64,000 nt of DNA, from the NCBI RefSeq assembly GCF_000004825.1, contig NW_008805064.1:3178544-3242543 (forward strand), in the 5' to 3' direction. Source of the DNA: Heterostelium album PN500 (Eukaryota > Evosea > Eumycetozoa > Acytosteliales > Acytosteliaceae). A model generated the notes under the pieces. The model made no database searches, was not told the origin of the DNA, and saw only the letters and a list, made by a program, of their open reading frames with translations. The position numbers and the translations under genes are program-made. Shown piece by piece: positions 23,985 to 28,330 of this stretch (its first letter is position 1; every line of letters begins with the position of its first letter).

Positions 23985-26349
23985 CTCAGTTTGATTCAAA
24001 GAAAATATAAAAAATAATTATTATCAGATTTATTATCTAATCTGTATTTAACTGAACTAATTCTAACTGTTTCTAATATTTATAAATATATGTGTATCGA
24101 ATCTAATCTAAAAAAAAAATTTTTAGAGTGAAATAAAAAAAAAAGAAAGAAAGAAAGAGAAAAGAGATACGAAGTTGATAAATTAGTAAAACTACTACTA
24201 CTACTATATTTTGATTTGATTAAATGATATATATCACTATAATTATATATGTACTTGATGTATGTGAATGTGTGGAAAAAGTGAACAAAAATGAAAATAA
24301 CTTGCTCAACTATGCTTTGATGGGAGGATTGGTTTGGTTTGTTATATTAATTAGTTTGATTGTGTGAGGTGGTTATTTTTGTGAAACTGTGTATTTTAGG
24401 GTGAAAGTGGAGGTGGTGGTGTGGATGTTTAGATAATTTTGTTTGGTTTGTGTGTGTTTTTTTGGAATGATTTCAATTGTCACTAAAGTTTTGCTCTGTC
24501 TGTGGATCAAAAACACACACAGTTTAAGAACATAAAAAAAAATCAAATAAAAATAATTTTTATTAATCAAATGAGCAAATTAATTTGTTTATTTTTTTGA
24601 TGATTTTTTTGATAGCGAACAGGTGGTAACTTTTAAAGAAATCGGTGGATTAAAAAACGAGAGCAAAGAGCGCAATCTAATAAAAATGAAATAAAAAAAG
24701 TAAAAAAAAAAGTTTTGGGTCGATTTTTTGATAAAACGAAACATAGCAACATCTAAACCTTTTACGTGAGCGATAACCATTTGAAGTATTTTAATTTTCT
24801 CTCTCTCAGAGAAAAAAAAACCTTAAACTAATAATAGAATGAATTTTGTTTTTTCATTTATAAGATATATAAAACTAGTAACTGTAATAATTGTATAACA
24901 TAACAAGCTAAAAGAAAAAGATGACACTTTATTTAATTGATTTATATTTTATTTTATTTTATTCTTTTTAAAAGAAATACCAACCAAATTATTATTATTA
25001 TAATTATATTTAATATTTATTTATATAACACATAAAATTTAAATATTTCAATGAAGAGTTAAAATATTAATCTTATTTTTGAGGAATGACATACATTTAC
25101 TCTTTTACTTTTTTTTCTATTTATTTTTTATTATATTTTTTTAAACAACCTATTATATCAGTGTACAATATACTATTATATAATTTATTATTTATTTTTA
25201 ACTTTGGCTTTCTAATAAAATAAAAAAAAACCAATACAGTAAGGACATTCAGGCTTTACTTTATAAAGGTATTAGTGTTTACACATTATTTTTGTTGTAG
25301 CAATTATACAAAATTGAATGAATATGATTAGTAATAGCAAGAGTAATTATAATTAAAAGGAATGTAAAAATCAAATTCACAATGACATATGAAAGTAAGA
25401 TGTGTCAGCTGACAACAACATAAAACATGACTTGTATCGACATTTTTTGCACCACTTGCCTTTTTTTAAAATAGGTATTCAAAAATACCAATTTTGGAAA
25501 TTTTTTTTATTAATTTTTAAAGTGTTATTTTTTATTAAGATAATTTTCTGATTCACTTATTGTTTTGAATAAAAAAAGATGATGCTAAAACAAATAAATA
25601 TTATTTAATACAAAAGATCCTTTTTGAATTCCTTAAAATGGTATTGAACCAAATTTAATATTAATAGTTTTTACAAAAAAAAACAAACAATAATTGTTTT
25701 TTTAAAAGTTTCATTATTTGAAAATTTTCAAATGATTTATTTAATGTTTACCACAAGGAATCCAATAATTAAGAAGAATATGATTAAGTTAACGTCTTTG
25801 TTATCTTCCAATCTTTTTTTTTTTGATTTGATTTGATTTGATTTGATTTATTAACTTTATTTACTTTTGGTTTGGTTGGATTAAAACTATAAATAAAACT
25901 TGAAGTTGATATTCTGTTCAACTATATATATGAGAGAGTATATTCTTATTATTAAAATGTAGTGTAACACTAATAAAGTTGCCGACTTTATTGGTTTGTA
26001 ATTAGGCAAAAAACAAATAATAATAATTGGTTAAACAAAAATACATTTTTTAAAATAACTCTCCATTAGTTTTTTTTTATATTTTTGTAGTATTATTAAA
26101 GGAATGTAAAAATCAATTCAATGAAAGACTTACAACATAAAACTAGAGACCATCGACATTAAAGTTTCCACTAAAATTGCAATCAAGCTCAACAACCAAA
26201 ATTAAATCAAAAAAAATATTTATTTATTTTATTGAATCATTTACTTGAAGTTAATATTTTATCTACTATTATCTTTTCTACATAGTCAAAAATTCTTATA
26301 AGAGAGTCAAGTTCGATCTCATCTCGTCTCTTTTTATGTCTTCGCATAG
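23985..26349. other. Gene-poor stretch with degenerate repeats
   Basis: 2.4 kb of AT-rich DNA. The first 0.8 kb, upstream of phospholipase D, has GT/TG-rich patches (24240-24480) and purine/pyrimidine runs that fit a promoter. From about 25,250 on there are diverged repeated blocks (listed separately) and no convincing gene. Confidence 0.5.
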
Positions 26350-26900
26350 TTCAGTCCAAGCAATTGGTACTCCAACTGGTCTTCATTGAGTAATCCAAGT
26401 CAGATATTTGATGGAACAACTCGAATATCGCTCTACTATTTTTATGAAGTATTGTATGACCCAAAAGGTAATCGTGAGATACTTGTACAATCGTACAGTC
26501 AAACTTTCAAACGATCGGTTCTTGTACAGACCTCCAACGGAATTACACCTCCAGAATAGATTACTACTTATAAACAAATTAGATTATCAAGCTATTAGCA
26601 AAGACTTCACGGTATATTCTATGTTTAAGAAAAAAAGAACAACTCAAAAGTAAGAGCTATTGTTAAAAAGTTAAAGTGGAACACTTCTTTGGTTTAACTG
26701 ACGAAAGGTGTCATATTAAAAAGTCGCAGTATCTTAAACAAAGAAAATGAATATTGCCAACACTTTTTTTTTCTTTTCGTTGATTTGAACAGGTTAGCTT
26801 TATTTACATTTGGTTTGGTTGGTTTAAAAGTATATAATCTTGAGTTGAACAATGATGAGCAAGACTATGAGAGTATACACTGTATCACTCTTTCTTAAAG
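25360..26900. repeat. Two families of diverged direct repeats
   Basis: Block X: AAGGAATGTAAAAATCAA... with ACAACATAAAAC and ATCGACATT occurs at about 25360-25445 and again at 26098-26165. Block Y: CTTTATTTAC(A/T)TTTGGTTTGG followed by TTAAAA, an ACTTGA/CTTGAGTTGA word and a GAGAGTATA word occurs at about 25855-25945 and 26808-26885. A partial third Y copy (ACTTGAAGTTAATATT, then AAGAGAGTCAAG) is at 26245-26310, just before the orphan exon. The copies share order but differ by many substitutions and indels, suggesting old duplications of one locus. Confidence 0.5.
26350..26559 (+). pseudogene. Orphan coding-like exon (gene remnant)
   Basis: After a pyrimidine-rich acceptor-like sequence ending CATAG at 26349, a frame of 69 codons runs to a TAG at 26559. 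It has clearly coding composition in otherwise AT-rich DNA: SPSNWYSNWSSLSNP, then GTTRISLYYFYEVLYDPKGN and REILVQSYSQTFKRSVLVQT. No start codon or upstream exon can be found; the only nearby ATG (26337) is in a different frame and stops after 17 codons. It sits between copies of block Y. Most likely it is the last exon of a decayed duplicate gene. The family is not recognised. Confidence 0.4.
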
Positions 26901-26943
26901 ATTTGTTTTTTTTGTTACATGTTTAATCACTGGTTGAAATGGT

Positions 26944-28330
26944 TTAAATGATTTCAACTTTATTCCATGCGGTGTTTGAATGATTCTGACCAACCTCCAA
27001 AGTGTAAAGTTCATTATCTTGTTTTCTCAGAGTTTGGAATTGATTATTTCTATAAAAGACACATAGCTGATTATTTTCAAGTTTCTCTTTTAGTGATCTG
27101 TAACCATCATATGTCAGTTGTTCACCTGCCAAGAAATCTTTAACTGGATTGTTAAAAAAAAGTAAATAAATGTTAATACAAGATTACTCTAACCAATTAA
27201 ACTACAGACAAACAAACAACTAAACTTACCAGTACGTTCAAATTGAATGGACATAGTTGGGAATATTTCAATAAATCTTATCATCTTTGCTTCCAAATCG
27301 TGGTGTGTAAGATTTTGTTCCATAATTATATCATATCCCTATAAATTATATATAGATATGTAAGTAAGTTTATGTTTAACAATAATATTATTTTTAATTA
27401 TTATTATTATTACATACTTCTTCATTCTCTGAATAGATCCAACCATGATATAGCTTGATGTTAACGAAATTAAAGATGTTGTAGATCGATTTCATTTCGA
27501 ATTGATCGATGGCAGAGAATTTTACGTTGACATCGCTTACGCCCGAGTAGATGAGCAATTGGAGTTCGTCTTCACGATACTTGTTGAGTGCATTCTGTTT
27601 TTCTTTGTCGGACTTGCATTGTCCTTCCATGTATTTGTAGACGAGTGCACCGATCTGGCTCATCTTTACTTTATTCTTATCTTCGGTGTCGAATGTGATC
27701 TTTCCGAGCAACAACAACACATTGGCAATAGCCACCAACATAGATTGTGGTTTATTTTCATTCAAAACGATCTGTACTGTTCTATCATTATATTGTATTG
27801 CTTTAACTTTACATTCAATTTCCTGTTGCAAATAAATAAACATTAGTAACTCTCCTCTGTGTACAACCATAGGCAATTTTAATTGTTGAACATACCAAAA
27901 ATTGATTTTCAACCAATTTAATTTTCAAATCTTCAATCAACGATTTATTATCTTTACCGTTATCCCAATAGGTTGCACCAATATCTTTTTCAATATGAAA
28001 CCAAAGATGTCCATTTCTAACACCAATAACTAAATAATAGATAATATATAAATGTTAGAATAAAATAAAACTTGTTGTTGGTTTAGATTTAGTTTGTCTT
28101 TGCTTTTTTTTCATACCTTTTGCTGGTCCACTTGGTGTTGAAACAAGCTGACCAAAGAAGAAACCAAAGCGCTGACAAGCATCAGGTGTAATATCAAACT
28201 CTAGATCCTGTCCATCTTTAGCAGGATATTTATATTTCTTTACTTGTATATCATCTACATACTCATCATCACTGTTGTTACTGATTCTAATACTGTTGAA
28301 CGTTCTATTGATTTTATCGGTATCAGACAT
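26944..28330 (-). CDS. MINDY-family protein, predicted inactive deubiquitinase
   Basis: Five exons: 28117-28330, 27896-28029, 27418-27822, 27230-27338 and 26944-27143, all in phase, give 353 residues. MINDY (FAM63) proteins are cysteine deubiquitinases that trim Lys48 chains. The family hallmarks are here: PQSMLVAIANVLLL (family G-P-C-P-L-L-A-I-x-N-x-L), LYHGW, and LTYDGYRSLKEKL followed by CVFYRNNQFQTL (family F-F-R-N-N-H-F-S-T). The catalytic Cys is Ser143 (codon TCT, 27742-27744) and the catalytic His is Gln322 (codon CAA, 27040-27042); the upstream Gln of the oxyanion site is Asn137. The enzyme is therefore probably dead but may still bind ubiquitin. The first 70 residues are a divergent extension. 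The start is the first ATG in frame. Confidence 0.78.

Follow-up and report, generated by a model that had tools for sequence, protein, structure and literature searches.

A gene on the minus strand at 28330-26944 of the window (the whole 64,000-nucleotide stretch analysed, which forms the final 64 kb of contig C3 in a genome of 32.9 Mb and 39 contigs) has an open reading frame, a MINDY deubiquitinase domain with replaced catalytic residues, and a related copy with canonical catalytic motifs on contig C30. We think it probable that this focal gene is a C30-type MINDY duplicate that has lost catalysis and is maintained as a coding gene, most likely for a non-catalytic role. Judged from its sequence, an open gene with a deubiquitinase (DUB) domain that lacks the catalytic residues, it would be classed as a pseudo-deubiquitinase. 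The original prediction had proposed the replacement of the catalytic residues; the shortened domain and tail, the canonical related copy in the same genome and the faster evolution of the MINDY domain are added here.

Structure of the gene and of its MINDY domain

The focal gene is organized as follows (window coordinates).

28330-26944, minus strand: focal gene (MINDY_DUB), five exons and four introns, spliced product of 353 amino acids
28117..28330, minus strand: exon 1, codons 1-71 and the first base of codon 72, with the ATG at 28330
27896..28029, minus strand: exon 2, remainder of codon 72 through codon 116
27418..27822, minus strand: exon 3, codons 117-251, encoding the N-terminal half of the MINDY domain with the former Cys loop
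27230..27338, minus strand: exon 4, codons 252-287 and the first base of codon 288
26944..27143, minus strand: exon 5, remainder of codon 288 through codon 353 and the stop

All four introns have GT..AG borders for splicing of the minus strand, and the 353 codons run uninterrupted to the stop. The coding sequence has a GC content of 34.0%, as compared to 11-32% for the introns. The exons, frame and splice sites described earlier as intact were all confirmed, although "intact" is too strong a word given the shortened domain. On the plus strand, a 69-codon stop-to-stop frame with protein-like composition lies downstream of the gene (26350-26559); its sole match in the genome is itself. A plus-strand neighbour, from 29556 onward, is arranged head-to-head with the focal gene and has a long Asn/Gln-rich start followed by what appear, by eye, to be myosin-motor-like motifs.

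The focal protein matched a single Pfam family, PF04424 (MINDY_DUB), over residues 121-345 (E 1.5e-39; 136.3 bits against a cut-off of 27), and its closest solved structures were human MINDY-2 (4.8e-19) and MINDY-1 (2.1e-15), followed by PDB entry 6k6l (6.9e-11), which was deposited under the label "pseudo deubiquitinase". A search of the NCBIfam profiles found no family at E values up to 1. On these matches, we regard the protein as a homologue of the MINDY_DUB family. Human MINDY1 and MINDY2 (FAM63A/B), which are K48-specific deubiquitinases, have the same domain, with 60 and 64, respectively, of 228 aligned core residues identical to the focal protein. The focal protein differs from both: other residues occupy the catalytic Cys and His positions, the oxyanion Gln and the third catalytic residue are replaced or missing, the end of the domain is gone, and there is an additional N-terminal domain that matches nothing in Pfam.

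The Pfam match covers positions 4-242 of the 264 in the profile. The earlier claim that the blocks of the MINDY fold are kept agrees with the strong family match but does not extend to the end of the domain. The protein stops six residues past Trp347, level with residue 336 of the C30 paralogue, and lacks the last 11 residues of the Pfam domain of the latter (to 347) together with the 59-residue tail that follows. An overlooked C-terminal exon was rejected, since a tblastn search of 25001-27150 of the window detected the known last exon (1.5e-9) but no C30-like C-terminus, the next match having an E value of 0.62. The missing domain end counts against an untouched fold, and the fold may be compromised. 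Single-sequence structure prediction of exon 3 alone gave a mean pLDDT of 37.8, a quality too low to be used.

Catalytic and ubiquitin-contact residues

The catalytic residues of human MINDY1 have been reported as C137, H319 and Q131, and activity as abolished by C137A, H319A and Q131A/E (PMC4942677). T335 has been described as a third catalytic residue, with T335V strongly lowering activity, and in inhibited MINDY1 the hydroxyl of Y114 is described as contacting C137 (PMC8550791). The corresponding positions of the focal gene are listed below.

27744-27742, minus strand: Ser143 (TCT), catalytic Cys position; Gln142 in an alternative placement
27762-27760, minus strand: Asn137 (AAT), oxyanion Gln position when aligned without gaps; with gaps, the Gln is deleted
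27042-27040, minus strand: Gln322 (CAA), catalytic His position

When the full protein was compared with MINDY-1 using phmmer, Ser143 fell on C137 in the three alignments listed, all of them ungapped in this region and with Asn137 on Q131. Exon 3 alone also gave Ser143 on C137 in 3/3 alignments listed, two of which were gapped. Against MINDY-2, it was Gln142 that fell on the Cys, in both alignments listed for the full protein and in both for exon 3 alone. MAFFT placed Ser143 on the nucleophile Cys, with the oxyanion Gln opposite a gap. With C30 and MINDY2 as partners, three placements of the Cys loop scored within 1-2 BLOSUM62 units of each other; with MINDY1 and C3 as partners, the ungapped placement (Ser143) was ahead by 9-12 units. 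No placement, by phmmer or by MAFFT, brought a Cys to the nucleophile position. Gln322 was found on His319 in every alignment listed (5/5 by phmmer, and also by MAFFT), the motif reading RNNQ instead of RNNH. The codons assigned in the original prediction to the Cys, His and Gln positions are therefore confirmed, with Gln142 and a deletion of the Gln as nearly equal placements, and the alignments to MINDY1 and MINDY2 place no other Cys/His pair in the active site.

The loss extends beyond the residues first noted. The position of P138 is occupied by Met144 and that of Y114 by Cys120, and T335 is opposite a gap in the MAFFT alignment and opposite Val338 in the phmmer alignments with MINDY-1. 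For two other Cys-loop residues, N134 and P136, the outcome varies with the placement: the gapped MAFFT alignment preserves both, and without gaps both are replaced. Among 57 positions that are invariant in C30, C3, MINDY1 and MINDY2, the focal protein keeps 34 and loses 23. In the MAFFT alignment, losses affect 5/7 catalytic or Cys-loop positions as compared to 18/50 elsewhere (p 0.11), and a hand count with the Cys loop ungapped gives 7/7 (p 0.002); the clustering of the losses at the active site is thus alignment-dependent. That the active site has been lost is itself well supported by the sequence. By analogy with published MINDY1 mutants, the focal protein should not cleave ubiquitin chains, because the Cys, the His, the oxyanion Gln, P138 and the third residue are replaced or missing.

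It could be argued that the active site was rebuilt, and that the focal protein cleaves ubiquitin or a ubiquitin-like protein via other residues, Ser143 or Cys120 being the candidates. Cys120 may lie near the old active site in space, since it occupies the position of Y114, which is described as touching C137 in inhibited MINDY1 (PMC8550791). There is also a precedent argued for USP52 (PMC10919355), and USP53 and USP54, formerly called pseudo-DUBs, are reported to have proved active (PMC12037411). However, the general base is now a Gln, the third catalytic residue has been replaced or lost, and the start of the first helix holds none of the protein's four Cys residues (Cys52, Cys120, Cys185 and Cys315). 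We consider a rebuilt active site very unlikely.

We also compared the ubiquitin-contact residues of MINDY1, as given in PMC8550791, with the focal protein in the MAFFT alignment. V210, W240, I266, R316 and N317 are kept. Y258 is replaced by His, E263 by Ala (which is also found in C30) and F315 by Tyr, and F339 is lost; the state of D209 and D336 varies with the alignment. The I266 position is a Thr in both C30 and C3, so that this contact is not conserved within the genome. Of the kept residues, V210, W240, R316 and N317 belong to the Leu73 pocket and the S1' site. The loss of catalysis alone need not abolish ubiquitin binding, because MINDY1 C137A is reported to still bind K48 penta-ubiquitin, at about 250 nM (PMC8550791). 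Ubiquitin binding by the focal protein is plausible and partly supported by its sequence: the kept contacts speak for the earlier suggestion that it binds chains without cutting them, and the changes at Y258, E263, F315 and F339 speak against it.

Possibly, the MINDY domain no longer contacts ubiquitin and is now a protein-protein interface. This would be a variant of the reading that we favour, with odds that overlap those of the other readings, and we hold it only tentatively. The change of Y258 and the loss of F339 are consistent with it, as are the fast change of the MINDY domain while the frame stays open (see below) and the scaffold or allosteric roles ascribed to pseudo-DUBs (PMC10919355), but the Leu73 pocket and the S1' site are partly kept (V210, W240, R316, N317).

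Paralogues and rates of change

A search of the genome with MINDY_DUB, in which the best candidates were scored, gave at least six matches in at least three genes. The features compared with the focal gene are as follows.

C30:596683-598233, minus strand: C30 paralogue, spliced product of 406 amino acids
C3:1015860-1019663, minus strand: third MINDY gene, canonical Cys and His, compared as a partly spliced sequence
27896..28213 of the window, minus strand: N-terminal domain of the focal protein, about codons 40-116, interrupted by intron 1, no Pfam match

Both of the other MINDY_DUB genes found (C30 and C3:1017360) keep the Cys and the His in canonical motifs. In the C30 paralogue, which is presumably active, the motifs QNENGPCP and RNNH are kept and the Pfam match is complete (2-264 of 264). 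The C-terminal tail of this paralogue (residues ~353-406), missing from the focal protein, has a weak match to RuvA_C (E 0.15) and looks UBA-like by eye; it gave no match in the PDB up to E 10. The third MINDY gene carries a long Asn/Thr-rich insert within the domain; close to the end of the gene, two stretches look MIU-like by eye, as in MINDY1/2. No match to PF13898 (MINDY-3/4) was found in the genome, but a control gave none either, so that absence does not follow. The genome is itself very likely that of a dictyostelid: it gave 150 scored matches to the Dicty_CTDC repeat (out of 269 candidates), a family with no match in any of 14 control genomes. No relative was detected at E 1e-3 in the viral_contigs and genome_contigs sets (viruses and prokaryotes), which have little bearing on dictyostelids.

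The focal and C30 proteins are identical at 85/228 core residues and at 49/99 aligned residues before the core. Two of their introns are at an identical alignment column and phase, including the one after exon 1; a third has the same phase but is three columns apart, and each gene has one further, private intron. In an unrooted tree of five sequences (LG+G4, 200 replicates), the two proteins grouped together with a bootstrap of 100%. Their common N-terminal domain and the exact agreement at two intron positions identify the two genes as duplicates; the C30 paralogue differs from the focal protein in having the Cys/His motifs, the complete domain and the C-terminal tail.

The N-terminal domain comprises about 76 residues, with invariant stretches that include GFF, LWF and WDNG, and is present in the focal gene, in the C30 gene and at two adjacent places on contig C4, one of the two C4 copies being taken into the alignment. 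Residues 1-122 of the focal protein gave no match in Pfam up to E 10, and the domain gave no credible match in the PDB (best E 1.1). The two C4 copies (C4:929000-938500, minus strand) each stand ahead of a long protein sequence, the two being similar to each other; there is an 802-residue open frame in one, and the other is spread across several overlapping frames and looks disrupted.

Lineage-specific changes in the MINDY domain were more numerous in the focal than in the C30 protein: 36:16 with MINDY1 as outgroup (p 0.008), 34:16 with MINDY2 (p 0.015) and 43:13 with C3 (p 7e-5). Without the active-site columns, the respective counts were 31:16, 29:16 and 38:13 (p 0.04, 0.07 and 0.0006). In the five-sequence tree, the branch lengths were 1.46 for the focal protein and 0.37 for C30. 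In the N-terminal domain, the changes were 7:6 (outgroup, one C4 gene), numbers so small that a difference from the MINDY domain is unproven. We conclude that the MINDY domain of the focal protein evolves 2-4 times faster than that of C30, with no acceleration of the N-terminal domain.

Could the focal gene simply be a duplicate en route to a pseudogene, in which constraint was lost fairly recently and the frame and splice sites are still unbroken? The MINDY branch about four times that of C30, the shortened domain, the absent tail and the altered ubiquitin contacts would all fit. Random substitutions create a stop in the focal coding sequence in 6.8% of cases, and in 2000 simulations (substitutions only) the frame stayed open in 4.6% at 0.05 substitutions per site, in 3/2000 (0.0015) at 0.1 and in 0/2000 at 0.2. 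An open frame after long neutral drift is therefore unlikely, although a recent loss of constraint may still be compatible with the value at 0.05 per site. Several separate active-site replacements need time, however, and drift to 0.1 per site leaves almost no open frames. The N-terminal domain is not accelerated, again on small numbers, and dN (0.50-0.54) is well under dS (1.4-2.6; NG86 and LWL85), though dS is saturated and both branches are averaged. On balance we think that a pseudogene in the making is unlikely, and that the focal gene would be under selection at present. The earlier view that this is not gene decay is upheld by the open frame, by dN below dS and by the unaccelerated N-terminal domain, and is tempered by the shortened domain and C-terminus and by the fast evolution of the MINDY domain.

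Relatives reported as inactive and a possible role

MINDY4B, which we take to belong to the MINDY-3/4 branch and which differs from the focal protein in that respect, is likewise a MINDY relative labelled inactive. One source calls it inactive (PMC6927194); a review (PMC8424594) gives it as a K48 cysteine protease instead. Yeast YGL082W, like the focal protein, is a MINDY homologue without demonstrated cleavage; unlike the focal protein it has the catalytic residues, and no activity was reported as detected although they are kept (PMC4942677). As these sources describe them, inactive MINDY proteins have already been reported, and the focal protein is a further case. In the titles and abstract openings of the papers listed, a set that leaves most subscription papers outside, no inactive dictyostelid MINDY was described. 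Pseudo-DUBs are put at about 13% of the DUBs identified (PMC10919355). Because pseudo-DUBs are common and inactive MINDY proteins are already on record, the finding is only moderately surprising.

In the reading that we favour, a non-catalytic duplicate kept as a coding gene, a dictyostelid MINDY deubiquitinase duplicated to give the C30 copy and the focal copy, and the latter lost the Cys, the His, the oxyanion Gln, P138 and the third residue, and with them, presumably, catalysis. The unaccelerated N-terminal domain might then bring the focal protein to the partners of the C30 enzyme, where the reshaped MINDY domain could compete for, or weakly hold, K48 ubiquitin chains or a partner protein. 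A more specific version, which we think improbable as it stands, is that the focal protein is a dedicated non-cutting reader or decoy of K48 chains that shields them from the active-type C30 copy via the common targeting domain. If true, the two genes would form a paired enzyme/pseudo-enzyme switch built around an as yet unassigned N-terminal domain.

The presence in one genome of a MINDY enzyme and a presumably dead copy that share an N-terminal domain offers a natural experiment on the non-catalytic part of MINDY proteins. Laboratory strains of dictyostelids are genetically manipulable, and the removal of either gene should therefore be practical where orthologues exist.
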